DNA of 64,000 bases from assembly GCF_022024015.1 (NCBI RefSeq), contig NZ_CP091786.1:1426001-1490000 (forward strand). Direction: 5' to 3'. This document shows positions 4,697 through 64,000 of this stretch, one piece after another (positions within the stretch are counted from its first letter, which is position 1; every line of letters begins with the position of its first letter). Position numbers and translations under genes: made by a program. Source of the DNA: Prevotella sp. E9-3. GTDB lineage: Bacteria > Bacteroidota > Bacteroidia > Bacteroidales > Bacteroidaceae. A model generated the notes under the pieces. The model had not been told where the DNA came from and searched no databases. It saw nothing but the letters and a program-made list of their open reading frames with translations.

Positions 4697-7600
4697 TTAC
4701 TGTGTGACTGTTGTCTTCACTTTTCCTCGCAGATAAATACCGCGACGTGTCGGCTTGTGCTGCAGTTTGATACCCTGCAGACTGTACCAGCCTTCCTCTT
4801 TGCCTTCGTCGGTTATGATGCTGTTAATGCTATCATCGGTATTCTGGAGCTCAATCACCAGAGGATCCCACGGAGTACCGACATTACCGTCGCTACTGTA
4901 GGTAATCGAGGCGTTCAGCGTCAGAATTTCTTCACCATAGGCAACGCGCAGTTCAATAGGCTGACCGCTTCCTTCTCCTGCTATAAGCAGGTAGTAGAGC
5001 CCTTCGCTACATGTGGCAACCCCTCGGCATTCATCGTTAATGAAGGCAGCCACCTCGGCCTCATCAACAGGCTCACCATCATTGACAAGCCTGATAACCA
5101 TAGACATATTGTCCGGATAATTGGTAGGATCTACCGGTTCGAAGACAGACGGAGCCCTGTGTGCTCTGTTTATTCCGAGTGTCCTGTAGTGTTGGTAATC
5201 AACAGTAGGATAGGTAAATACCTTTTCCCGGCTATCTGCGCTATAGTAAAGGTATCCCTTTCCGCTCTCCATAGCTTCCAGATTACCTTCCCATCCATAG
5301 GGGCCGTAGTATGCAAATGCGAATTGTGACTTTACTTGATCGCCCGGCTGCGGGTTAGCACCGGCCAGTGCCTCGCCAAGTGGCATTGTTGCAAATGGCG
5401 TATAGGGAATCCAGTTCCATCCATTCTTAATCGTTACTGATGAGTTGGGAGATTCTATCTGTTCACCAATCACAATCAGGGGATCAGGTAATTCATGGCT
5501 TCCGTCCTTTCGGCTTAGGAACATCTTATACATCGTATTGGCAGACATTTTAGTCAGGGGACCAGACCAGTAAACACCATTGCAGTAGGAGATTCCTTCC
5601 GTCTGATCTTTCAGACGCACATTCCATGATGCCACGTCCTTGAAGACCACAGATACAGAGTCGTTTGCTGGAGTTACACCCAGTGATAGCCAGTTCCAGC
5701 CCTGCTTCAGACTGAGCGGCTGCTCCACGTACTTGCTCTTGGTGAAGATGACGGGGGTGTCAAACGTACCGTAGCTTTGTGTGGGGTTGAATATTAATGT
5801 ATCCTGGCTTGTTCCGTTTGGCAGGATCAGACTCACATTAGTGTATGTAATGCCCGTATTCGCATCCCAGATGCGGAAAGTAACAGGCTGGTTCTGGTCT
5901 AAATCACACATCTTTCCGTTGATCTCCTGCTGTGCAGTACCATATACAGACAGGGGGATGTAAGCGGTTCCGCGAATCTGCTTGGGAGCAGCCACACCGC
6001 GGCATACGCCTTTGATGAAAGCAGCCACGCGACTGTCGGGGTTCTCCATCAGCACACCTCCTATACGCACCTGTCCCGTAATAGTCATCTGATTCTCGTA
6101 CTTCATCGGGTCAACGGCCCAGTCGGGCATCTGTCCGCGCACCTTCATTACAATGCGCAGGGGCTCCAGAATCTCGTTGTTACCCTGCAGACCTATGGTC
6201 ACGTCATAGTTACCGATACTTACTAGTGGATTGACCTTGAAGCGTAGCGTTTTCCTGCGCAGCGGCTGCACATTGTCGGTCTGATCACTATCTACAATCG
6301 AGAGCCACTGGGGCATATTTAATAAGGTATAGTACTCTACGCTACCGCTCTTGTTTTCGATATTCACGTCGAAGATATAATCATCGCCGTACATCTTATT
6401 GATATTCACCGAATCTTTTGTCCACGTCAGCGTGTTCTGCTGTACATAGGCCGTCCAGCGTATGGGCAGTGATGTGTTGCCGTGCAGGTCGTGCACCTGA
6501 TCGACGGTGATGTTAAGTGTCGTTCCTTCTATGTCACGTGGGCTGATACCGGCTCCCGTCAAGTTAATGACCACTTTACGCTCCGATGCTACGGGCGAGG
6601 CTATTATCCGAGTTTCCTCAGGTGCGTTCTTTACGGGGGGAATGGCACGTACGAGTTCAGAATTGGTCGATGAGATCTCAGTATTATGATGTCCTTTTGC
6701 CATATTCTGCATGGTTGGCACCTTAGTCTTTACACCGTTCACGTTGTCAGCCTGTTCAAAGGGATAGTAGGCCACCAGTCCGCGTGAATAGACGTCGGCA
6801 GTGTCGATTGCGTTGTAAATATTGCCTGTGAGGCAGCTCTCGCTCAGTGCCGCATGCCAGATACGCACCTCGTCCACTTCGCTATCGGTGGTGTTCTTAC
6901 CTATAATGAGCTCGCTACCCTGAATAGGGGGCACGTCGGCTTCGGCGATGACTGCCGTTCGCTGACCGTCCAGATAGAAACTGGCTGCCTGTCCGCGAAC
7001 TACATTCAGTGCCAGATGGCGCCATACATTATCCTCGGGGAAGTCCTCGTGGCTGGCTACCGTCTGTTTCTTCTTTCCGTATTCCAGCACCAGGTTCTTC
7101 TGTTCATCGTAGTTCAACTGCAGACTGTCCGTCTTGAAAACTACCTGAACAGCAGGGGTGCTATCATCGTGGGTGTTATCACGTTTATACCACATTTCTA
7201 TAGCATAGCTGTCCCCACGTGTAGTGTTCAAATCTGATATGTTGGCTTTGGCGCCTTCTTTATCTTTAATATGCAGGGCATAGTTCACGTTCTCCAGCTT
7301 CCACGAGTTGGGCACCACAAAATTGTGGGTACGTCGCAGGTCAGCGGCCACGTTGCCGTGACCCTCGTCCATGGGCCAGTAGTTGACCAGTCCATACACA
7401 TAGCCGTCCTTGCTCTGATACATCGTGGAGTAAGCTTCGTTCACATCGTGACTGATATCGTAGAGGCTCAGTGCATGCATATCGGCATTGATATGGCCCA
7501 GATAGAGGTAGTTGTCACTGGCAGCGCTGAGGTTCTGCATGCCATCCGTTGTCACGGGCATGTTGTCGAACAGTTTCAGATTTTTACCATCATAACTTGC

Positions 7601-10600
7601 CAGTACGTCAAAGACAAGATTGGCAGCCTTGAAGTTCAGCGCCAGGAAAATCCACTCGTCTTTGGGCAGCGCATCGGTGCTGATGAACTGATTGCCGGCA
7701 ACGGTGATTACAAAATGGCCTTCTTCGTCAATACCCAAGGCAAATTTTGTTCCATCTTTACCACTATGCAGAAGGGTACCGCTTTCATGCCAGTTGAACC
7801 AGAAGTCCACGGCAAAGTCACCGCTCAGGAATACGGGGTTCTCCGTTTTGGGAGCATCTCCATTGGACTGCAGGCGTAGAGCCACCTCGTGGTTCACCGT
7901 CTGCTGGTTCAGTTTGGCCGTTATAATAACATTTTTATCGCTCACATAGCCAGGAACAATATCCTCGTTGAACTCGATAGCCAATTGGTCACCATAATAT
8001 AGAATACCGTTTGACGGTGCAGGCGTGAAGAGACTTCGCGGACGAGTCAGGTCTTTAACAACCTTAGTCACATCGCTGTAAACGCTCACCAGCTCCGTTC
8101 CGTAGGGCGTGGTAGTAAAGGCTCGGAACTCATAGTTGCCTTCGGGATAACTAAGGTTGCTTGACATATCTACGTCGTAGCGAATGTCGCCCGTAGTAGG
8201 CAACAGGTCGTTGCTCACACCGGCAGTGTCGGCAGCACTGGTCCACCACGTATGCAGGTCTATCCACTGTGTGTTGCCCTCAAAACGGTATTGTACGCCC
8301 ACCTTGCGCAGGTTCTTGAACTGACGGTCGAAGTTGGTCAGTTTCAGTTGTAACGTACCGTCCTTACTCTCAGTGTTCAGCACCGGCTCTGTGATAGCCA
8401 GTTCGACGGGTGACGATGAGGGTTTGAAGTGGGCGTTGATGGTTACGTCATCATGGATAAGCCCTGGCTGATACTGCGAACAGAAACGCAGGCGTATGCC
8501 CTCGTAGTCAAGTATGCTTTGGTCGGTCTGTCGGATGGTGATTTGCTTCGTCACCGTCTCACCCTGAGGCAGCATGATGGAGCGTCCGCTGATGGGCACA
8601 CCATCCATCAGAATCTGTAGGCCTTTGGTATTGGACGTCTCAGGTACCACCACATTGTAACTGAAGTTCGTTCCTTGGTGCACGCGCGCCATATTAGTGC
8701 AATGCAGCGTCAGATGCGCCTCCTGTCCCGAGGCTATGTCGGTCACGGTAACATTCTTCGAAGGGTTCTGCCCCGTGATGCTGATGCTCATGCTGGGCTG
8801 TTCCATCTGTTCTGTGCCGTTGCCAAGGGGAGTGCCAGGTTCATAGTATTTAGTCACTTCCTTGTCCTCAAAGGGATTGTATGTCTGTCCGCCATAGAGA
8901 TAGAAAAAGTCACTATAGCCATTTGTATCCGAGGCATATTTGTTGATGGAGAGGTCGGTGTCGCGGTTTCCATCCTCTACATGATACTCCCATTCGGTGA
9001 ATGACTCGGTTTTGGTGCCTTCACCAGTGGTACGTCCACCACCATTTTCTGTACTTATGGTTGTGGATACTCCAAATAACCCCAACATGTCGGTTTCCCA
9101 TCCAAATTTTTCGCCTAAAATACCTCCTATTTTCCAATTAAGAATTCCACTTTTGTTTTTTGTTACAGCATCGCGTTGAGAATAGATATATGATGTACCG
9201 CCATCGATGGAGAAATTCTCTGCCACTTTGTTCTTAATGGAGTTAACCTTATTCTCCTCGTTATCCTTGATGCACTTGCGCCAAAGCTCTATCTGATTAT
9301 TGCACCACTGTACGCTGTCAATACATATTTCGTCCGGGTTCTTCGGTGCCACAAAGCGGTAGTTCCCCTCTTCACCATAACCCGCCTTCCCTTCTTCTAT
9401 CCACGACAGATAGACTGTTTTTTTGCTGGTATTCTGGTATGCTTCGGCATCTGCTTTTGTAGCGACTGGCGTCAGGAAAGCGTTACGCTGTTCCACCCAC
9501 TTGGGTATCATCACCGTCTCTATCTCATACTGGCTGTACTTGAAGGACGTTGCTATCTCCTGACCCAGCGAAAGGGCGTCCTCCAGCGCAATGACATACT
9601 GCTGGGTGTCGGCGTCCAAGCGTATCAGCAGGTTTCGGCATGAACCCACAATCATGTTGTAAGAGGTACCCACATAGACGTCACCGGCACTGCCTACATA
9701 GGGATAGGATGCACTGGTAGATACGGATTCAACCGTAGTGACGGTGGTGGTGGTGTCTCTGTTGTCTTGGCGCTCCCATGTATAGCGACAGCCTATACTA
9801 AAATCATTAGTCACTTTCTGTTTATTTATTACCATTACTCCAAATCCAGTAGCTGATTCCGCATCTACACCAGTTAAACAATCAAATACAAGGCTTTCAT
9901 TGCCATAACCTGAACGTGTAAAATAGTGCGTCTTACTGACCACTTGACCTTTCTTCAGTGTGGTCCTGGACTTTGCCCCTGGCGGGTCGCGTAGCACAAA
10001 CTGTACAATGTCGGGTCCTTTGGTAATGAAGTTGTTGCCGTTGGTGAGAGCACCCAGCACAATGGCATCCATGTCGTGGAGCACATAGGTACGGTTGTTA
10101 CGCACCATGCTGACAGAGAAATGACGTGTGTAGGGGCTGGTGATGTTGGGGTATCCCACCTGCCAGGTCAAGTGTCCGCATCCTATACTGTCCAGTTCCA
10201 TTTCAATGTCCTGAACATCCACAACCTCACCTTCCTTATATTCGATGTCGGGATCATCCACCCGATAAACCACTTTCTGCTCAGAACTCATCTCGTTGGT
10301 TATTTTCAACGTTTGGCCCTTCAGGGCGATGATGTCTTCCACAACTTGTTCACCGTCGTGGTTGACGTACCGTTCATAGGCATAGAAGTCGTAGTAGCGC
10401 ATATCGCCTGTCTCGTAGATGGGGTACCCCAGCAGATAGCTGACGGAGCCGTCTTCTTGAACCGTCCAGATGTTGTTGATGGTGTACTTGTTGCCATCTT
10501 CGTCGTTGCCGTAAGTCTTCTCCCTGATACCAAAGACACCAGGCTTATATCCTGTCTCGCTGATCTCAAGTTGCGGTTGTGCATAATAGGTCCACACCTG

Positions 10601-13600
10601 CTTGGTGTTATAGGAGTAAGCTTGGCTATCTAATGAGTCGTTCAACTCTTTTCGCGGATTGGTGAGGTCAATCTCGGAAAGGGACGAGAATTCTATACCG
10701 GGATTGCTGTCTATACTGACGCTCTTGGTGAAGTACTTCAATGGCGGCAGTAGGGCAGAGAACTCACCTGTCAGCGAGTCGGTGCGGATATATATGTATT
10801 TAGAGTCGGCACCAGTACCTGTCCAGGCAGTACTCTTGATAGTCGTGGTGTCGCTATCCCAGATGCGATTGGTTGCAGCGGTGCTGATGTGGTCGTCGGC
10901 GCAGTTGAAGGATAGCGACTCGTTGTTCAACTCCAGCTTCACAGTGGCAATACCTATATTGTTCTTAGACTCACCGAAACCTACGGCCAACGTGTCGTTG
11001 CGCTCACCACCGCCTACGCGGCCCACGAAGTTCACCAGCGTGGAGTCGGCAAAGTCATACGTCACGGCACGGTCAAAGTTGAAGGCGCCTTGTGTGGGAA
11101 AACGGCCTTCAGCCACCATGGTGTGGCCGTCGAGCTTGGCCTCCACATAGTGTTTGCCAATGGGCACGCTGATTTTGTAGTAGCCTACGGCATCGGTTTT
11201 CTTTACCTCGCCATTACCCGTCACCAGATCACCGTCAACATAAAGCATAATGCCCTCGGCAGGGATGTTTGTGCCCGCATAATAGACGTAACCTTCCATA
11301 GGGAAGGAGGAGACGTCCTCGAAATCAGTCTTGTTGTGAACCAGCGCGTTCTGACCAACGAAGAGTACACTCTTTCCGGGATTGAACTCATGGATGCCAA
11401 ACAACGGTGTGACTGTATAGGTGGTGCCTGCCTCGCTAAAGGGTACACCTTGGATGACATAGTTGCCGTCTGCATCAGTCTTGGCTCTTAGCGCTAAAGC
11501 TGAAGGCGTACGGTCTGAAGAAGTAGCATTTTGGATATCCGTACCATGGTGCTTATGATAATCGGTGCCGGTGCGTGAATAGTCGAAAAACTGTGTGCGG
11601 AGACCCTCGTCGAAGGTCCAGTAAGTTTCCAGCCCATCCTCATTGCCCACAAGCAGGTGGTTGTAATTCTCCATGATGTCATCTTCGCTGAGGCATTTCG
11701 TCCACAGGCGGAACTCGTCGGCCGAGCCTTTGAAATGTCCTAGCTCAAACTGCGTGGCATTGCCGAGTGACAGCTTGTCGGTTAGGGGGATGCTGGCTTT
11801 CTTAACAACAGGCTCGTTCCTTTCATTGATAGTCATGACGTAGCACGTCATTAGGGTGCCGCTGCGGGTCAGTGCCACGTGGTTATAGTTGTTCACATTC
11901 AACTTGATGCCCTCGAAGGATTGGTAGGTGGCGCTATCGCTGAAAGTCAGCTCTCCGCTGGCGGTCATGTTCAGGCTCACACAGTTGTCGATTTTAATAA
12001 TCTGTCCATTGCTGAGCGATTCGGGGTACAGCCATAGCTGAACGGAAAAATCACCGGAAGAGAATTTCTCTGTAGCATATTCGGTTGAGGGGTAGTCCCA
12101 TTTCACAAAACCTGATGAATCATTGAAATACATTGAATAGAACTGGGACTTTTTATTGTCGCCAGAACTGTTCTTCGTCATAATCACATCCACCCCCTTC
12201 ACGGCAATGCCCGACGAGCCGTAGGCGATACGTCCGGTCACGGTACCGGTGCTCTTGGCGAATCCGATGTCTTTAATATCATTTTTTGACTCAGTACCAT
12301 CAGAGCACTTATCTGCCACGGAGATGTTGTAGTCGTAAAATACGCCAGGCAAAGCCGTCTCATCAGTATAGAACAGATATTCGTCGGCACTACTCATTTT
12401 GGTCAGTTCATTATATTCAGAGCCATTATTCTCCGCTTCGCGACGACTTATGGTGTAAGTCTTTGTCTCGGAACCTTGATTATTGACATGCCACGTCAGT
12501 TTTACCGCACCCTCATACACCCCTTTCGATGCATCTAAGTCATAGAACTGCGTACCCTGACCAATGGCTCTCAGAAGGATGGAGTCTTTGTTGAGCACCG
12601 TAGAACCAATGAGACCCTCAATGCGGTAGTTGTGAGGAGAACATACACTCAACTGTTCTTCAGTAAAAGGAAATCCGCTATTGGGGTCAATTCCGTTCTG
12701 GCGGTCGCTGTGCAAATCAGTGGTGCGGTGCTCCCACCTGAAGGTACTCTGTCCATTAGACGGTATGATGGTATCAACGGGAGTAGTCTCCTTATCTATG
12801 TAAATATAGAATTTGTTGCCAATGTTTTTGGGGTAGCCGTCAGACGACCATGTGAATACGAGACGATCGTCCTGCTGTTCAACGTTGAGGTTGTTTACAG
12901 GCACCCTGCGTGTGCAGTCCACCGTCACAGATGTCTTTGTTCCATCACGTTTGTCACCTTCATTCCACTCGTTCGAAACGAAATATATATCGTAGGTATG
13001 AGTTTGTTCTGTGGTCATTTCCTCATCAACGAAAAAACAAGTGTTCCGATTGTTTGCTATAAGCTTTTTATCATCACGATAGACCACCCACTTGTAGTTG
13101 GTGAAATTGCCGGGAATGGAACCTGCGTTCCACGACAGATTTACTTTGTTTTCAACTTGGTTGAATACGCCGCTGGTACCTGTTGCCGGTGACACCCATT
13201 GTGCGTATAGCTTTACAGGGCCTTTGTCAGTAGATGAGGCAGTGATTGTAGCCTGGTCACTGTAAAAGGTGCCGCTACCGTCTGCCTTGGTATTCCATCC
13301 GATGAAACAATAGCCATCGCGTGTCATAGTACAGGCTTTCAGTTTACCGCCGTTTTCTATAATCTGATTGGTCATGGTAACGTCGGAGCCGTTAGGATAG
13401 AAAGTGATGTCCTTGTAGTAATAATCCTTATACGAATAATTTTTAGTGTTGAAGCTTACTTGTTGGTCAAATTGTAATGACTTGTAATTGTTGAAAATGG
13501 AATACACCATCATCGCAGTATATTTCCAAGAATTAGCACTGCTGGAATTCCTGTTGTCAAAAGTAAAGTGTTTTTCGTTTTCTTGTTCATTCTTACCTAT

Positions 13601-14089
13601 ACCCATTTTTGAGAGTCTTGAGAGAAGGTATTGCGATCCGCTCGCATTTTGATAATCTTCCGTCCAATCTATTGAGGTGTTCTCAATATAATCATTCTCA
13701 CTAAGATATAAGGCAACAGTTTGAACATGTCCCTTACCAACCTTTGAACTGAGTACATAATTCCATTCTACCTCCCTTCGTGTATAAGATGGCACATTCT
13801 CGTTATAGGTAAAAAGTGACATGATAATCATTTTGGATTTCTTCTGGGAAAAACCCCATGTTATAAATTGGCACCCTCCTTCATATATATTATCTGTAAT
13901 AAAGGTATTATTAGGGAAGCCATTATAAAGCTGGCCAAAATTTAAAGTAGGCTGATCATCATAAGAGGCCCAATGAGATTTCCAGGTCTTAAATTTCCAC
14001 GGACTTGATGCATTCATTGTTCCAGCCACTAAAAGCATTACGAGTACAAGGGCTGTCTGGCTGAACAGAGAAGTAATATGTTTCATCAT
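4697..14089 (-). CDS. Giant multidomain surface protein (LamG, InlB-like and Fn3-like domains, C-terminal sorting tail)
   Basis: 3130 residues, starting with a signal peptide (VLVMLLVAGTMNAS). Modules readable in order: a Listeria-Bacteroides (InlB-type) repeat near 230-300 (GYCFIGWNTKADGSGTFYS); Fn3-like segments to about 570; a LamG/concanavalin-like domain near 670-800 (FSVQLWLYPES, ending DEFRLWTKCLSEDD); carboxypeptidase-regulatory-like domains near 890-1010; a long unassigned middle; two further LamG domains near 2090-2230 and 2290-2420 (VDFWFNWHESG, IEMWYKRDN); and two copies of a GWNW-containing module near the end. The C-terminus (GWYSLQGIKL...RRGIYLRG) is the sorting-type tail of Bacteroidales surface proteins. 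It probably acts outside the cell as an adhesin or glycan-binding scaffold; no catalytic domain was recognised. It is 8 bp downstream of the fimbrillin-like gene. Confidence 0.85.
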   Translation of the reverse strand: MMKHITSLFSQTALVLVMLLVAGTMNASSPWKFKTWKSHWASYDDQPTLNFGQLYNGFPNNTFITDNIYEGGCQFITWGFSQKKSKMIIMSLFTYNENVPSYTRREVEWNYVLSSKVGKGHVQTVALYLSENDYIENTSIDWTEDYQNASGSQYLLSRLSKMGIGKNEQENEKHFTFDNRNSSSANSWKYTAMMVYSIFNNYKSLQFDQQVSFNTKNYSYKDYYYKDITFYPNGSDVTMTNQIIENGGKLKACTMTRDGYCFIGWNTKADGSGTFYSDQATITASSTDKGPVKLYAQWVSPATGTSGVFNQVENKVNLSWNAGSIPGNFTNYKWVVYRDDKKLIANNRNTCFFVDEEMTTEQTHTYDIYFVSNEWNEGDKRDGTKTSVTVDCTRRVPVNNLNVEQQDDRLVFTWSSDGYPKNIGNKFYIYIDKETTPVDTIIPSNGQSTFRWEHRTTDLHSDRQNGIDPNSGFPFTEEQLSVCSPHNYRIEGLIGSTVLNKDSILLRAIGQGTQFYDLDASKGVYEGAVKLTWHVNNQGSETKTYTISRREAENNGSEYNELTKMSSADEYLFYTDETALPGVFYDYNISVADKCSDGTESKNDIKDIGFAKSTGTVTGRIAYGSSGIAVKGVDVIMTKNSSGDNKKSQFYSMYFNDSSGFVKWDYPSTEYATEKFSSGDFSVQLWLYPESLSNGQIIKIDNCVSLNMTASGELTFSDSATYQSFEGIKLNVNNYNHVALTRSGTLMTCYVMTINERNEPVVKKASIPLTDKLSLGNATQFELGHFKGSADEFRLWTKCLSEDDIMENYNHLLVGNEDGLETYWTFDEGLRTQFFDYSRTGTDYHKHHGTDIQNATSSDRTPSALALRAKTDADGNYVIQGVPFSEAGTTYTVTPLFGIHEFNPGKSVLFVGQNALVHNKTDFEDVSSFPMEGYVYYAGTNIPAEGIMLYVDGDLVTGNGEVKKTDAVGYYKISVPIGKHYVEAKLDGHTMVAEGRFPTQGAFNFDRAVTYDFADSTLVNFVGRVGGGERNDTLAVGFGESKNNIGIATVKLELNNESLSFNCADDHISTAATNRIWDSDTTTIKSTAWTGTGADSKYIYIRTDSLTGEFSALLPPLKYFTKSVSIDSNPGIEFSSLSEIDLTNPRKELNDSLDSQAYSYNTKQVWTYYAQPQLEISETGYKPGVFGIREKTYGNDEDGNKYTINNIWTVQEDGSVSYLLGYPIYETGDMRYYDFYAYERYVNHDGEQVVEDIIALKGQTLKITNEMSSEQKVVYRVDDPDIEYKEGEVVDVQDIEMELDSIGCGHLTWQVGYPNITSPYTRHFSVSMVRNNRTYVLHDMDAIVLGALTNGNNFITKGPDIVQFVLRDPPGAKSRTTLKKGQVVSKTHYFTRSGYGNESLVFDCLTGVDAESATGFGVMVINKQKVTNDFSIGCRYTWERQDNRDTTTTVTTVESVSTSASYPYVGSAGDVYVGTSYNMIVGSCRNLLIRLDADTQQYVIALEDALSLGQEIATSFKYSQYEIETVMIPKWVEQRNAFLTPVATKADAEAYQNTSKKTVYLSWIEEGKAGYGEEGNYRFVAPKNPDEICIDSVQWCNNQIELWRKCIKDNEENKVNSIKNKVAENFSIDGGTSYIYSQRDAVTKNKSGILNWKIGGILGEKFGWETDMLGLFGVSTTISTENGGGRTTGEGTKTESFTEWEYHVEDGNRDTDLSINKYASDTNGYSDFFYLYGGQTYNPFEDKEVTKYYEPGTPLGNGTEQMEQPSMSISITGQNPSKNVTVTDIASGQEAHLTLHCTNMARVHQGTNFSYNVVVPETSNTKGLQILMDGVPISGRSIMLPQGETVTKQITIRQTDQSILDYEGIRLRFCSQYQPGLIHDDVTINAHFKPSSSPVELAITEPVLNTESKDGTLQLKLTNFDRQFKNLRKVGVQYRFEGNTQWIDLHTWWTSAADTAGVSNDLLPTTGDIRYDVDMSSNLSYPEGNYEFRAFTTTPYGTELVSVYSDVTKVVKDLTRPRSLFTPAPSNGILYYGDQLAIEFNEDIVPGYVSDKNVIITAKLNQQTVNHEVALRLQSNGDAPKTENPVFLSGDFAVDFWFNWHESGTLLHSGKDGTKFALGIDEEGHFVITVAGNQFISTDALPKDEWIFLALNFKAANLVFDVLASYDGKNLKLFDNMPVTTDGMQNLSAASDNYLYLGHINADMHALSLYDISHDVNEAYSTMYQSKDGYVYGLVNYWPMDEGHGNVAADLRRTHNFVVPNSWKLENVNYALHIKDKEGAKANISDLNTTRGDSYAIEMWYKRDNTHDDSTPAVQVVFKTDSLQLNYDEQKNLVLEYGKKKQTVASHEDFPEDNVWRHLALNVVRGQAASFYLDGQRTAVIAEADVPPIQGSELIIGKNTTDSEVDEVRIWHAALSESCLTGNIYNAIDTADVYSRGLVAYYPFEQADNVNGVKTKVPTMQNMAKGHHNTEISSTNSELVRAIPPVKNAPEETRIIASPVASERKVVINLTGAGISPRDIEGTTLNITVDQVHDLHGNTSLPIRWTAYVQQNTLTWTKDSVNINKMYGDDYIFDVNIENKSGSVEYYTLLNMPQWLSIVDSDQTDNVQPLRRKTLRFKVNPLVSIGNYDVTIGLQGNNEILEPLRIVMKVRGQMPDWAVDPMKYENQMTITGQVRIGGVLMENPDSRVAAFIKGVCRGVAAPKQIRGTAYIPLSVYGTAQQEINGKMCDLDQNQPVTFRIWDANTGITYTNVSLILPNGTSQDTLIFNPTQSYGTFDTPVIFTKSKYVEQPLSLKQGWNWLSLGVTPANDSVSVVFKDVASWNVRLKDQTEGISYCNGVYWSGPLTKMSANTMYKMFLSRKDGSHELPDPLIVIGEQIESPNSSVTIKNGWNWIPYTPFATMPLGEALAGANPQPGDQVKSQFAFAYYGPYGWEGNLEAMESGKGYLYYSADSREKVFTYPTVDYQHYRTLGINRAHRAPSVFEPVDPTNYPDNMSMVIRLVNDGEPVDEAEVAAFINDECRGVATCSEGLYYLLIAGEGSGQPIELRVAYGEEILTLNASITYSSDGNVGTPWDPLVIELQNTDDSINSIITDEGKEEGWYSLQGIKLQHKPTRRGIYLRGKVKTTVTQ

Positions 14090-20258: not shown

Positions 20259-20801
20259 TTATAACATTTCTTCAATTTCCTTCTCAAAATCTTTCGGCTC
20301 TGTAGTAGGAGCATAGCGCTTGATGGTTTCGCCATCTTTAGAGATAAGGAACTTGGTGAAGTTCCACAGTATATCGCTGTCTTTCTCTACGCTCTTGCTG
20401 ATGGTTTTCAGCATGGCATGGGTGGCTTTGGCCTTCAGTCCTTTGTATTCCTCGGTAGGAGCCTGAGACTTCAGATACTCGAAAATAGGTTCTGCATTGG
20501 CACCATTCACGTCAGTCTTCTTCATAATCTGAAAGGTTACGCCATAGTTCAGCTGACAGAACTCTTCAATCTGGGCATCGTTGCCCGGATCCTGCTCCTT
20601 GAATTGGTTGCAAGGGAAACCTATGATTACGAGGCCCTTGTCCTTGTATTTCTGATTCAGTTCTTCCAGTCCGGCAAACTGGGGGGTGAATCCACACTTG
20701 CTGGCAGTATTGACTATCAGCAACACTTTTCCCTGAAACTCGGAGAAGTCAATCTCCTTACCTTTGCTCGTTAGAGCTTTGAAATCATAGATCTTCTTCA
20801 T
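20259..20801 (-). CDS. Glutathione peroxidase family protein (thioredoxin-type)
   Basis: 180 residues. The peroxidatic cysteine sits in NTASKCGFTPQ near residue 37, in place of selenocysteine. The motifs GFPCNQFKEQDPG (about 60-72) and WNFTKFLI (about 146-153) supply the Gln and Trp of the catalytic tetrad. The cysteine in FPCNQF is the conserved one; such bacterial enzymes generally use thioredoxin rather than glutathione. The gene heads a two-gene unit with the PNPOx-like protein. A CAAAGATA box at 20842-20849 (TATCTTTG on the minus strand) is a likely -7 promoter element. Confidence 0.88.
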   Translation of the reverse strand: MKKIYDFKALTSKGKEIDFSEFQGKVLLIVNTASKCGFTPQFAGLEELNQKYKDKGLVIIGFPCNQFKEQDPGNDAQIEEFCQLNYGVTFQIMKKTDVNGANAEPIFEYLKSQAPTEEYKGLKAKATHAMLKTISKSVEKDSDILWNFTKFLISKDGETIKRYAPTTEPKDFEKEIEEML

Positions 20802-20985
20802 ATTCTTTATTTGTTTATATCGTTTACGATTTTTGATGTTGCAAAGATAGAGAGTTTGTTTTATATCGCAAGCGATTTATGAAAATATTTAATAATGATT
20901 AACAAAAAGTCGTAGGCGATATATTTTGAGGAGGTCTATTACAATATAATATATTGAGAAGGTACTTTTTTTGTGTGATGCTACT

Positions 20986-21002
20986 TTGGCACGGTATTTG
21001 CA
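20986..21002 (+). promoter_or_regulatory. Sigma-54 (-24/-12) promoter of htpG
   Basis: TTGGCACGGTATTTGCA is an exact match to the RpoN consensus (TTGGCACG-N4-TTGCA), with the required 10 bp between the GG and GC pairs. The GC lies about 48 bp upstream of the htpG ATG, which would give a 5' leader of about 35 nt. A near-perfect palindrome CAATATA-A-TATATTG at 20942-20956 could be an activator site, but AT palindromes arise easily by chance. Confidence 0.8.
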
Positions 21003-21048
21003 AATGTTATGGCAGAATTATTAAAATAAACATTTCTAATATAGAGTT

Positions 21049-23109
21049 ATGCAAAAAGGTAATATCGGGGTTACAACCGAGAATATTTTCCCCGTCATCA
21101 AAAAGTTTCTCTACAGCGATCATGAGATTTTCCTGCGCGAGATGGTTTCAAACGCCGTTGATGCATCGCAGAAAATGAAGACCCTGGCTGAAAAGGGTGA
21201 GTATAAAGAAGAACTGGGTGACCTCACAGTTCGTGTGAACTTGGACACCGAGAAGGGTACCATCACCATCAGCGACCGCGGTATTGGTATGACCGAAGAG
21301 GAAATTGACAAGTACATCAATCAGATTGCCTTCTCGGGTGTTACTGACTTCCTGGAGAAGTATAAGGACAATGCCAATAATATCATTGGTCATTTTGGTT
21401 TGGGTTTCTACTCTTCGTTCATGGTATCAAAGAAGGTAGAAATTATTACTAAGAGCTATAAGGAAGGTTCAAAGGCTGTGAAGTGGAGCTGTGACGGAAG
21501 TCCTGCCTACGAGATTGACGATGCCGAGCGTGACAGTCGTGGCTCAGATATTATTCTTTATATAGACGATGACTGCAAGGAATTCCTTGAGAAACAGAAG
21601 ATTGAGGGCCTGTTGAACAAGTATTGTAAGTTCATGCCTGTGCCTGTAGCTTTTGGAAAGAAGCAGGAGTGGTCGAGCGATGAGAAAAAGATGGTGGACA
21701 CTCAGGAGGATAATATTATTAATAATGTGGAACCTCTGTGGACCAAAGCTCCCTCGTCGTTGAAGGAGGAAGACTACAAGTCGTTCTACCGCACACTCTA
21801 TCCTATGCAGGACGAGCCTCTGTTCTGGATTCACCTGAATGTGGACTATCCTTTCAACCTGACGGGTATTCTGTATTTCCCACGCATCAAATCGAACATA
21901 GAGATTCAGCGTAACAAGATTCAATTGTATTGCAATCAGGTGTTCGTGACCGATCAGGTGGAGGGTATTGTGCCTGAGTTCCTTACCCTGCTGCATGGCG
22001 TAATCGATTCACCCGACATTCCTCTGAATGTGAGCCGCAGCTATCTGCAGAGCGACCGTGAGGTGAAGAAGATTTCTACATATATCACTAAGAAAGTGGC
22101 CGATCGCCTGAAGGCTATCTTCAATGAAGACCGAAAGGCCTATGAAGAGAAGTGGGACGACCTGAAACTGTTTATCAACTACGGTATTCTGTCAGAACAG
22201 GATTTCTACGATCGTGCTAAAGATTTCTCACTCCTGAAAGATACAGAAGGTAAGTATTTTACTTTCGATGAGTATAAGCAACTGATTGAGGCTTCGCAGA
22301 AGGATAAGGACAACCAGCTTGTATATCTCTATGCTACTGACAAGGAAGAACAGTACAGTTATATTAAGGCCGCGCAGGACAAGGGTTACTCTGTGCTGCT
22401 GATGGACGGACAGTTGGATGTGCCTTGTATTCAGACTTTCGAACAGAAATTCGAGAAGAGTCGTTTCACCCGTGTGGATGCCGACATCATTGATCGTCTG
22501 ATTGTGAAGGATGAAGCTCCTAAGAGCAATCTGTCAGATGAGGAACGTGACAATCTGTCAGCGGTATTCCAGTCACAGGTTCCTTCACTTGAGAAAGCTG
22601 AGTTCCGTGTTGAAGTAGATGCCTTGGGTACTGAGGCTCGTCCGGTGGTGATTACTCAGAACGAGTGGATGCGCCGCATGAAGGAAATGAGCCGCTATCA
22701 GAGTGGTATGAACTTCTATGGACAGATGCCCGATTCGTTCAATCTGGTACTTAACAGCGACCACGCTTTGGTAAAGAAAGTACTTGACGATGCTCAGGCT
22801 GCACTGACCGAACAGCTGAAACCAATCGACAGTGAGATAAAGGGACAGGAAGCTCGTTTGGCTATTCTGAACCAGCAGACTGAGAAGAAAAAGCCCGAGG
22901 AAATCACTCAGGAAGAAAAAGATGACAAGGCTAATACTCAGAAGTCTATTGATGAGCAAAAGCAGAAACGCCAGCAGCTTATCGCTGACTATGCCAAAGG
23001 TAATGATATCGTTCATCAGTTGATAGATTTGGCATTGTTGCAGAACGGCATGCTGAAGGGCGAGGCACTTGACAAGTTCCTGAAACGTTCTGTTGATCTG
23101 ATTAAGTAA
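21049..23109 (+). CDS. htpG: Hsp90-family molecular chaperone HtpG
   Basis: 686 residues. The N-terminal GHKL ATPase is marked by NAVDAS (about residue 36, Mg/ATP), SDRGIGMT (about 75) and GHFGLGFYS (about 115). The middle domain contains YCNQVFVTD and the catalytic-loop segment LNVSRSYLQ with its arginine (about 330). The C-terminal third carries a Gln/Lys-rich stretch (TEKKKPEEITQEEKDDKAN) that is longer than in E. coli HtpG. It is a cytoplasmic dimeric chaperone acting with the DnaK system. Monocistronic: it has its own promoter and a terminator after the stop. The sigma-54 type promoter is unusual for htpG. Confidence 0.96.
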   Translation: MQKGNIGVTTENIFPVIKKFLYSDHEIFLREMVSNAVDASQKMKTLAEKGEYKEELGDLTVRVNLDTEKGTITISDRGIGMTEEEIDKYINQIAFSGVTDFLEKYKDNANNIIGHFGLGFYSSFMVSKKVEIITKSYKEGSKAVKWSCDGSPAYEIDDAERDSRGSDIILYIDDDCKEFLEKQKIEGLLNKYCKFMPVPVAFGKKQEWSSDEKKMVDTQEDNIINNVEPLWTKAPSSLKEEDYKSFYRTLYPMQDEPLFWIHLNVDYPFNLTGILYFPRIKSNIEIQRNKIQLYCNQVFVTDQVEGIVPEFLTLLHGVIDSPDIPLNVSRSYLQSDREVKKISTYITKKVADRLKAIFNEDRKAYEEKWDDLKLFINYGILSEQDFYDRAKDFSLLKDTEGKYFTFDEYKQLIEASQKDKDNQLVYLYATDKEEQYSYIKAAQDKGYSVLLMDGQLDVPCIQTFEQKFEKSRFTRVDADIIDRLIVKDEAPKSNLSDEERDNLSAVFQSQVPSLEKAEFRVEVDALGTEARPVVITQNEWMRRMKEMSRYQSGMNFYGQMPDSFNLVLNSDHALVKKVLDDAQAALTEQLKPIDSEIKGQEARLAILNQQTEKKKPEEITQEEKDDKANTQKSIDEQKQKRQQLIADYAKGNDIVHQLIDLALLQNGMLKGEALDKFLKRSVDLIK

Positions 23110-59011: not shown

Positions 59012-61309
59012 ATGGAAGAAATACAGAAGACCGAACGTGTAACGACGCTTTTTCGTAAAGCAACAGAGCTTTGCCAGGAGTACAGGCATGAGTTTGTTAT
59101 GCCCGAGCATTTGTTGAAGGCATTTATCGACGATTCATATTATGCCCATATATTAGATGAGTATTATCCCTCTGAAAGGTTGAATGCCGACTTGAAAGAA
59201 CACTTGCTTGAGACCGAGCAGGTTCCGACTGATCGTTCATATATGGTAGAGCCGTCTGAACAGATGAACCAGTTGATTGAGATTGCCTGTCAGCATGTAG
59301 TGAACAGCAGTGCCAAAGCGCTCGACATACCTCATTTATTAGATGGACTTTTGTCGCTCAATGATTCATGGGCTTGTTATCTGCTGAAAAATGCGATTAA
59401 GGATGATGAACCCTTATTTCTCAGTCATATCATAACCGCTGTTGACTGGCTTGATACTGTCGATGATTCTTTTGGTGACGATGATGAGGATGATGGCGAG
59501 TCAGATTATCCTTTTTCCGATGCTCCACCAAAGATGGATGCTTGGAAAAAACTGGTGACCTGTATGAATGATTGTTATGAGCAGCAGAATCCTCTGATAG
59601 GTCGTGAGGCAGAATTGCAGCGAACCATTCAGGTACTTTGCCGCCGTGATAAGAATAATCCATTACATGTAGGTGAGCCTGGTGTGGGCAAGACCTCCCT
59701 TGTGTGGGGACTGGTCAGAATGATTGAGGAAGGCAAGGTGCCTGAACGACTTGCGGGTTGTAAAGTGTATCAGCTTGACATGGGAACACTTCTGGCCGGT
59801 ACTCAGTATCGTGGTGACTTTGAGAATCGCATTAAGATGATTATGGAAGGAGCAACGGCCGAGAAAAATGAGACCGGCGCGTCTGTTCCTACTATTATCT
59901 ATATTGACGAGATTCACACCATGGTGGGCGCCGGTGCCACGAGCGACAGCTCGATGGATGTCTCAAATATGCTGAAGCCTTATCTCGAAGCTGGCAATAT
60001 ACGCTTTATAGGGTCAACCACCTATGAAGAGTATAACCGCCATTTCTCACGTTCCAAAGGACTCATCCGGCGCTTTCAGCAGATTGATATTACTGAGCCT
60101 ACTATAGAAGAGACAAAAAACATCCTTCACCAATTGCAACCTCGCTACGAAGAGTTTCATTACGTGAGATATGACGATGCTGCTATTGATTTTGCTGTTG
60201 AGGCCAGTGCAAAATTCGTGAACGATCGTTTCTTGCCTGATAAGGCCATCGACCTGATAGATGAGGCAGGAGCTGCTAAGGAAGTTGTCTCTCAATCATC
60301 GACTATGGCTGTTACCAAAGCTGATATCGCCGATGTACTGGCTAAAACCTGTAAAGTAGATGCACTGGCAGTTGCCGTGGATGAGGATTATGAACGACTG
60401 GAGACGCTGGCTTCAAGAATGCAGGCTCAGATTTATGGTCAGGACGAGGCTATACGGCAAGTGGTTGAGTCGGTACAGATGTCTCGTGCAGGACTGCTCG
60501 ATGACAACAAGCCATTGGCATCGCTCCTTTTCGTAGGTCCTACAGGTGTGGGAAAGACCGAAGTTGCTCGTGTGTTGGCCCAAGAATTGGGTATTGAACT
60601 GATTCGCTTCGATATGAGTGAATATACAGAGAAGCATACGGTGGCTAAACTGATTGGCTCGCCCGCAGGCTATGTTGGTTATGAAGATGGCGGCCTTTTG
60701 ACCGATGGCATTCGCAAAACACCTAACTGTGTGTTGCTCCTCGATGAGATTGAGAAGGCACATCAGGATATATACAACATTCTGTTGCAGGTGATGGACT
60801 ATGCTCGCCTGACGGACAATAAAGGACATAAGGCCGATTTTCGTAATGTAGTGCTTATCATGACTTCCAATGCCGGTGCGCAGTATGCCTCACAAAGCGT
60901 TGGCTTCAATCATACTGTAAGTCGTGGCGAGGCTATGATGAAGCAAGTGAAAAAGACATTTAAGCCCGAGTTCTTGAATCGTTTGTCAGGTGCGGTGGTA
61001 TTCCATGATATGGACAATTCGATGGCTACACTTATTCTGCAAAAGAAACTGCGTCAGTTAGAGGAAAAACTGTTGGCCAAGCAAGTGACCATGACTCTTA
61101 CCCCTGAGGCTGTTAACCATCTGTTGAAAGAAGGATTCACTGCCGAATATGGTGCACGCGAAATGGATCGCGTGATTGCTCAGCAGCTAAAACCATTGTT
61201 GATGCGTGAGATTCTTTTCGGTAGATTAAAGCATGGCGGTAGCGTCACAGTAAGTGTAGAAAATGCCCATCTTGCTATCGTAGGCTGCGAATCTTCTGCA
61301 ATTTCATAA
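59012..61309 (+). CDS. clpA: Clp protease ATP-binding subunit ClpA
   Basis: 765 residues. An N domain (1-150) is followed by an acidic linker (GDDDEDDGESDY near 155) and two AAA+ modules. The first has Walker A GEPGVGKTS near 221 and Walker B IIYIDEIHTM near 295. The second has Walker A GPTGVGKTE near 510 and Walker B VLLLDEIEKAH near 575. The ClpP-docking loop is represented by SVGFNHTVS near 628. It unfolds substrates for ClpP; with ClpS and Aat it forms the N-degron pathway. The linker acidic run is longer than in E. coli ClpA. Confidence 0.93.
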   Translation: MEEIQKTERVTTLFRKATELCQEYRHEFVMPEHLLKAFIDDSYYAHILDEYYPSERLNADLKEHLLETEQVPTDRSYMVEPSEQMNQLIEIACQHVVNSSAKALDIPHLLDGLLSLNDSWACYLLKNAIKDDEPLFLSHIITAVDWLDTVDDSFGDDDEDDGESDYPFSDAPPKMDAWKKLVTCMNDCYEQQNPLIGREAELQRTIQVLCRRDKNNPLHVGEPGVGKTSLVWGLVRMIEEGKVPERLAGCKVYQLDMGTLLAGTQYRGDFENRIKMIMEGATAEKNETGASVPTIIYIDEIHTMVGAGATSDSSMDVSNMLKPYLEAGNIRFIGSTTYEEYNRHFSRSKGLIRRFQQIDITEPTIEETKNILHQLQPRYEEFHYVRYDDAAIDFAVEASAKFVNDRFLPDKAIDLIDEAGAAKEVVSQSSTMAVTKADIADVLAKTCKVDALAVAVDEDYERLETLASRMQAQIYGQDEAIRQVVESVQMSRAGLLDDNKPLASLLFVGPTGVGKTEVARVLAQELGIELIRFDMSEYTEKHTVAKLIGSPAGYVGYEDGGLLTDGIRKTPNCVLLLDEIEKAHQDIYNILLQVMDYARLTDNKGHKADFRNVVLIMTSNAGAQYASQSVGFNHTVSRGEAMMKQVKKTFKPEFLNRLSGAVVFHDMDNSMATLILQKKLRQLEEKLLAKQVTMTLTPEAVNHLLKEGFTAEYGAREMDRVIAQQLKPLLMREILFGRLKHGGSVTVSVENAHLAIVGCESSAIS

Positions 61310-63837: not shown

Positions 63838-63854
63838 TTGGCATGTTTTTTGCA
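63838..63854 (+). promoter_or_regulatory. Sigma-54 (-24/-12) promoter of the J-domain gene
   Basis: TTGGCATGTTTTTTGCA has the exact sigma-54 spacing (10 bp between GG and GC) and matches the consensus TTGGCACG-N4-TTGCA except for T in place of C at the seventh base. It lies 68 bp before the ATG at 63922. Confidence 0.75.
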
Positions 63855-63921: not shown

Positions 63922-64000
63922 ATGGCATTTGTAGATTATTATAAGATTTTGGGCGTTGATAAAACGATTCCGCAGAAGGATGTGAAGAAAGCCTATCTGA
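63922..64000 (+). CDS. J-domain co-chaperone (DnaJ/CbpA-like), N-terminal part
   Basis: Only the first 26 codons are in the window: MAFVDYYKILGVDKTIPQKDVKKAYL, the start of a J domain (helix I DYYKILGV and helix II DVKKAYL). The HPD motif lies beyond the end. A full-length DnaJ or a CbpA-like protein with a C-terminal substrate domain are both possible. It has a strong Shine-Dalgarno and a sigma-54-type promoter, separate from the divergent RidA-like gene. Confidence 0.85.
   Translation, partial: MAFVDYYKILGVDKTIPQKDVKKAYL

Follow-up and report, generated by a model that had tools for sequence, protein, structure and literature searches.

Sigma-32 and HrcA/CIRCE heat-shock control coordinate the kinds of genes considered here through another sigma factor or a repressor. 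In Bacteroidota a different arrangement has been described. Transcription starts carrying a -24/-12 motif (SM4) were mapped in the related fish pathogen F. psychrophilum, and SM4 promoters precede groES-groEL, lon, dnaK, grpE-dnaJ, htpG and clpB, among others (PMC9723704). The main text of that study counts three activator proteins and assigns none of them to the chaperone cluster; its locus-tag numbering puts an activator-lptE pair (THC0290_0733/0732) near groES-groEL (0729/0728). Sigma-54 enrichment has been reported in Bacteroidia/Bacteroidota for the Hsp90, GroES/GroEL, DnaK/DnaJ, GrpE and IbpA (Hsp20) families (PMC12316311). For the sigma-54 dependence of grpE and groES that paper cites its reference 80, the listed title of which is that of a Blattabacterium genome paper. 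In addition, PMC10434189 lists htpG and groES/groL as iron-responsive in P. intermedia and B. thetaiotaomicron, and for P. intermedia also grpE and a DnaJ-domain gene.

The initial annotation of the DNA analysed here had treated sigma-54 chaperone promoters as undescribed, and in that respect it was anticipated by PMC9723704 and PMC12316311. We find that the htpG promoter is real and that the regulon to which it belongs is of a known kind. As far as our literature searches reach, the new parts are the box TGNCA-N3-TGNCA beside the promoters, a receiver-less candidate activator of chaperone promoters, and the fusion of this activator to LptE. The likely switch of the chaperone regulon, judged from sequence, is this sigma-54 activator, fused in Prevotella sp. 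E9-3 to the outer-membrane lipoprotein LptE.

The htpG promoter and its conservation

The window, i.e. the whole stretch of 64,000 nucleotides from Prevotella sp. E9-3 to which positions refer, contains htpG at 21049–23109 (+), encoding an Hsp90 of 686 aa (PF00183). The sigma-54 promoter core TTGGCACGGTATTTGCA lies at 20986–21002 (+), with its -24 element TTGGCACG at 20986–20993 (+) and its -12 element TTTGCA at 20997–21002 (+), and 46 nt separate it from the ATG at 21049. It has GG near -24 and GC near -12 at the fixed spacing, and from sigma-54 geometry transcription is predicted to start near 21013. An exact -24/-12 motif at this distance and the lack of a nearby TAnnTTTG box had been claimed in the initial annotation, and both observations were confirmed, as no TAnnTTTG was found within 150 nt upstream of htpG in the window. 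A glutathione peroxidase gene (20259–20801, -) is divergent from htpG, with which it has a 247-nt intergenic region in common. Elsewhere in the window, a 3130-aa ORF at 4697–14089 (-) combines a Laminin_G_3 domain with a Listeria-Bacteroides repeat.

The htpG core is the single zero-mismatch match to TGGCACGNNNNTTGCW in the window. When up to two mismatches were allowed, six matches were observed in the window versus 9.6 expected, which is no excess. As such matches occur at chance level, a lone site is little proof, and the case for the promoter comes from conservation, the rest of the genome and relatives of this organism, not from the motif count in the window.

Conservation was assessed in 80 related htpG loci, the best 80 of 559 relatives in a species-genome search, with titles that were mostly Prevotella or Prevotellaceae. 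The initial annotation had named absence of the motif in close relatives as grounds for abandoning the promoter; TGGC-N7-TTGC starts 48–101 nt upstream of the htpG ATG in 79 of these 80 loci, and in the remaining one the core ends in TTGT. For a footprint alignment, rows were anchored on TGGCA[CT]-N5-TTG[CT], which was matched by 81 of 81 rows, and removal of near copies left 74 non-redundant loci. With these rows aligned on the core pattern, TGGCA and TTTG were invariant and C-12 stood at 0.99. A second conserved block, resembling GGCARAA, was observed at -2 to +5, the expected sigma-54 start region; in the window this block is GGCAGAA at 21011–21017 (+). No column from -66 to -36 exceeded 0.14 bits in the 74 loci, and per-column conservation revealed no fixed upstream site in the htpG promoters of the clade. 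A gapped-word search of the same promoters returned best words that were present in only 16 of 81 loci and that resemble shared neighbouring sequence.

It might be argued that a housekeeping promoter drives htpG and that the -24/-12 match arose by chance, given that chance accounts for the number of mismatched motifs in the window and that no promoter type is more abundant in F. psychrophilum than the sigma-A type (PMC9723704). This explanation is very improbable in view of the near-invariant core in 80 loci, conservation that stops at the promoter, the lack of TAnnTTTG near htpG in the window, and the presence of the same core upstream of other chaperone genes.

By eye, the gene directly upstream of htpG ends like a Clp ATPase in four of the loci (L140, L141, L143 and L146). 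In L146 (from G223) 13 nt lie between this gene and htpG, and no promoter was found there.

Chaperone promoters, RpoN and activators of the genome

Two pattern searches were carried out on the complete genome. Exact matches to TGGCAYNNNNNTTGCW were found at 19 places compared to 9 for the reversed pattern, a modest excess, and matches to TTGGCAYRNNNTTTGCW with at most one mismatch at 25 places compared to 8. Combined, the searches yielded 38 distinct motif places, 13 of which are outside ORFs of more than 130 codons. Ten of these 13 are upstream of htpG, dnaK, groES, ClpC-like, J-domain, four hsp20 and thioredoxin genes, as identified with Pfam, although one hsp20 site is distant, the nearest possible start codon of its gene being 187 nt away. 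No convincing downstream gene was found for the other three (L027, L115 and L126). If about 20–40 chaperones among 3,000 genes are assumed, the probability of finding at least 9 of 13 places before chaperones is below 1e-14. The cores of clpB and grpE are weaker, matching at 11 and 9 of 14 positions.

A second core, TTGGCATGTTTTTTGCA, is present in the window at 63838–63854 (+), 67 nt upstream of a J-domain gene (PF00226, 222 aa) that occupies 63922–64000 (+) and extends past the window end. A Clp-type AAA+ ATPase (PF07724, ClpB_D2-small and weak Clp_N) is encoded near this gene, at 59012–61309 (+). The initial annotation had taken the second site as a hint of a sigma-54 chaperone regulon; the site was recovered in our searches, and the genomic positions of the motif, most of which outside longer ORFs precede proteostasis genes, support a regulon of this already known kind.

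In the genome designated G288, 34 raw motif places were found versus 23 for the reversed pattern, again a modest excess. Thirty of the 34 were examined and 13 were outside longer ORFs. Only 4 of these 13 precede htpG, groES, lon or an FKBP gene, and most of the others are not chaperone-linked. The core of the FKBP gene lacks one G of the GG, and the dnaK core of G288 overlaps an opposite-strand ORF of 158 codons.

The initial annotation had also listed the lack of an rpoN gene as an objection to the promoter. The genome encodes an RpoN of 528 aa, the core-binding and DNA-binding domains of which gave strong matches. In a domain search of the full protein, its activator-interacting domain scored 21.7 bits, below the cut-off of 23.8. 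A genome search using this domain alone gave no match. We considered the possibility that region I of RpoN had been lost; this was ruled out because the full protein has the sub-threshold match. An rpoN match was present in 291 of 296 Bacteroidia genomes. Genomes devoid of rpoN failed as a natural experiment, since the five without a match are all drafts of 170–460 contigs; when four of the five were followed, an htpG match was absent in two.

The sigma-54 interaction domain had seven matches in the genome. Two correspond to full activators, each at 214.7 bits. The first (G000:C1:2249927 onward) is a receiver-less protein with a sigma-54 interaction AAA+ domain and an HTH, while the second (G000:C1:788847) is of the two-component type. 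The other five matches scored 22–36 bits; three are Clp ATPases and the remaining two are at 1573786 and 3566295.

A candidate activator and a box beside the promoters

The receiver-less activator at 2249927 contains the loop GSYTGA and an HTH_8 domain. In each of the 30 genomes searched it gave the top match (281–907 bits), which ran unbroken over nearly the whole query in 28 genomes and was split into two pieces in the other 2. Runner-up matches reached at most 238 bits and covered mainly the AAA+ part. A G[AS][FY]TGA loop was present in 23 of 24 parsed proteins from the 30 loci, our own genome included. An LptE-like gene is located downstream of the activator in 23 of 29 genomes (in one case with an intervening gene and in another as a weak match, E 1e-4), and in 11 of these genomes groES-groEL is within 7 kb of it; contig ends shortened two of the 29 neighbourhoods. 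In Prevotella sp. E9-3 the activator is about 670 kb from groES.

The regulon could depend on sigma-54 and yet use another activator, for example the protein at G000:C1:788847 with its receiver, AAA+ (GAFTGA) and HTH domains, or different activators at different promoters. The activator query had at least two matches in 29 of 30 genomes, and most of the 30 hold further activators; distinct activators were suggested for the co-expression clusters of F. psychrophilum (PMC9723704); and several promoters of our genome are without the box described below. However, the lptE-linked activator is the only one found in G288, where htpG, groES, lon and dnaK are all preceded by cores. The near full-length matches in 28 of 30 genomes, as opposed to next matches to the AAA+ part, and the position of the gene beside groESL in 11 of 29 also speak for the lptE-linked protein. 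We consider the use of another activator unlikely.

A repeated TGTCA was first seen by eye upstream of the hsp20, clpB and groES cores of the genome. The pattern TGYCANNNTGYCA was fixed before other genomes were inspected, and it was scored in the 130 nt upstream of groES. It occurred at 9 of 10 in 8 of 11 groES upstream regions from 11 other genomes, compared to 4 of 76 upstream windows and none of 80 coding windows that served as controls from Prevotella loci. Inspection by eye of the sequence before groES in L251, L252, L255, L256, L263 and L266 showed TGTCAG...CTGACA-type hairpins followed by T runs, and in several loci the half-site of the groES box doubles as an arm of a terminator-like stem. 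As these boxes form a hairpin arm ahead of a T run, a terminator could account for part of the groES signal.

The box was also scored upstream of htpG in 27 other Bacteroidia genomes, the gene having been found in 27 of 30 searched. A box matching TGNCA-N3-TGNCA at 7–8 of 8 positions and ending 11–14 nt before the TGG was present in 19 of 27 genomes, 9 of them with a perfect box, compared to 0.22% of 14,445 shifted positions and 0.19% of shuffles; the 11–14 nt spacing was set after viewing the htpG sequences, and the control covers the four positions rather than the choice of spacing. In the window the corresponding position, 20960–20975 (+), is without a box, the best score at this htpG being 3 of 8. 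The box reached 7 of 8 in 1 of 80 Prevotella-type htpG loci, and the box pattern occurred in the 130 nt before htpG of the clade in 4 of 80 loci versus 4 of 76 control windows.

Of the 12 chaperone promoters scored in our genome, 5 carry the box at 11–14 nt (groES, two hsp20, thioredoxin and clpB), and 2 (two hsp20) carry it at 23–24 nt, about one helical turn further. The dnaK box is further upstream, at 36 nt, and the box is absent from the htpG, ClpC-like, J-domain and grpE promoters. Among genomes with activator linkage, the groES box is at 11–14 nt in only 1 of 11 promoters. Boxes located further up tended to lie near integral multiples of a helical turn (R = 0.63 at 10.5 bp, n = 27), although these are non-independent, several of them coming from the same promoter or from paralogues. 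The combination of box and core was rare: it was found nowhere in the 64-kb window and 12 times in 390 kb comprising the window and selected loci; 10 of the 12 precede chaperone or thioredoxin genes, in loci picked for such promoters. In 392 kb of htpG loci the combination occurred three times, once before htpG.

We also considered, and rejected, the idea that box quality is traded off against core quality. The correlation was negative when 107 htpG promoters were pooled (rho -0.46) but positive and non-significant within the 27 class-wide promoters (rho 0.35, p 0.08), so the apparent trade-off depends on one clade.

In L245–L251, which come from several Bacteroidales genomes, a sequence identical or nearly identical to TGTAATTTTGTCA is located 18–85 nt upstream of the activator gene. 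This sequence includes TAnnTTTG, and the box score is 7 of 8 in 6 of the 7 loci; the activator may therefore regulate its own gene in these genomes. In L270 (G239) a perfect box, TGACAAATTGTCA, is at -54 upstream of the activator gene.

The box could instead be read by a different protein, for example a repressor or an additional activator located next to polymerase, with the sigma-54 activator needing no fixed site. Both the 11–14 nt spacing and the phasing of the further boxes at about 10.5 bp fit a polymerase-adjacent site better than a flexible enhancer. On the other hand, the box is a 13-bp dyad that a dimer of Fis-type HTH domains could read, and box and activator are both widespread in the class. 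We consider a separate reader of the box unlikely.

Taken together, it is highly probable that sigma-54 acts on htpG through a functional promoter at 20986–21002 and that this promoter belongs to a chaperone regulon, the likeliest activator of which would be encoded with lptE and read the box. The regulon would consist of htpG, dnaK, groESL, four hsp20, ClpC-like, J-domain and thioredoxin genes, with clpB and grpE having weaker cores. RNA polymerase with RpoN would wait in a closed state at -24/-12 until an AAA+ activator opened the promoter under proteotoxic or envelope stress. We infer that this activator is the receiver-less, Fis-type protein encoded with lptE (G000:C1:2249927 onward), and that it reads TGNCA-N3-TGNCA adjoining many promoters of the regulon. 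As htpG of the Prevotella clade has a near-consensus core and no box, its promoter would be served either by the same activator acting without a fixed site, or by the second activator of the genome. Candidate activator and box are both class-wide, and the contrast between htpG promoters that have the box and those that lack it constitutes a natural experiment.

The activator-LptE fusion and comparison with known systems

In our genome, which is a single contig, the reading frame of the activator continues into LptE to give a protein of 584 aa (L003:1459-3210). The Sigma54_activat domain occupies residues 15–181, HTH_8 residues 376–415 and the LptE domain (PF04390) residues 451–579. The LptE domain is located behind a lipoprotein-type hydrophobic stretch and a Cys, and Cys434 is present in 51 of 51 aligned fused proteins. 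When the LptE part was used to search proteins of 321–1022 aa, 1103 matches were obtained, and all 120 of those listed also carry activator domains. Among 220 proteins in two hit lists, 126 are fused, 85 are separate and 9 were unparsed; many of the Prevotella proteins are fused. At 64 distinct junctions, the end of a helix resembling TLYRRLKQYG leads into 11–18 hydrophobic residues and then a lipobox-like Cys. The hydrophobic stretches have a mean hydropathy of 2.39; one contains a charged residue and 22 have no Met in the first eight.

A tree of 100 proteins, sampled from the top of the two hit lists and with some joins unsure, contained 13 changes between the fused and separate states, 8 of which are forced by well-supported branches. 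As the state switches often, both forms must work. The fused ORF contains an in-frame TTG as a possible internal start for LptE, and the signal peptide that would result has no positive charges. The predicted fold of the fused protein had a mean pLDDT of 51.9 and a pTM of 0.26, and a single helix (405–429) spans the junction at such low confidence.

As the DNA-recognition helix runs directly into a lipoprotein signal peptide, we propose that the protein could be retained at the membrane before LptE is cleaved. The switch of the regulon would then be one polypeptide with LptE that stays at the inner membrane until export and cleavage of LptE release it, and the supply of cytosolic Hsp90, Hsp70 and GroEL would be coupled to the state of lipoprotein and LPS export. 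We regard this scenario as speculative and quite unlikely. If the fusion acts as a single protein, cytosolic folding would be covalently wired to outer-membrane assembly, an arrangement that to our knowledge is not known from other bacteria.

The regulon resembles the predicted sigma-54 regulon of Bacteroidia in that Hsp90 and other chaperone families are included; it differs in that PMC12316311, in the portion consulted, presents gene-family statistics rather than a single promoter, box or activator. The similarity to the SM4 promoters of F. psychrophilum is closer, as -24/-12 promoters precede htpG, groES-groEL and dnaK in both organisms, as well as grpE and clpB, for which the cores are weaker in our genome, and the locus tags in PMC9723704 place an activator-lptE pair near groES-groEL, as in 11 of the 29 genomes examined here. 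Starts were mapped in that study whereas ours are predicted from sequence; TGTCA does not appear in its main text, and hsp20, ClpC-like, J-domain and thioredoxin genes are added in Prevotella sp. E9-3. As the main text of PMC9723704 names no activator for the chaperone cluster, what we offer for the chaperone switch of Bacteroidota is a candidate and a site. Like PspF and NtrC-type activators, the candidate has a sigma-54 interaction domain and a Fis-type HTH, and it resembles PspF in the absence of a receiver; unlike them, it has a GSYTGA loop, a proposed site directly upstream of the promoter and, in this genome, a fusion to LptE.
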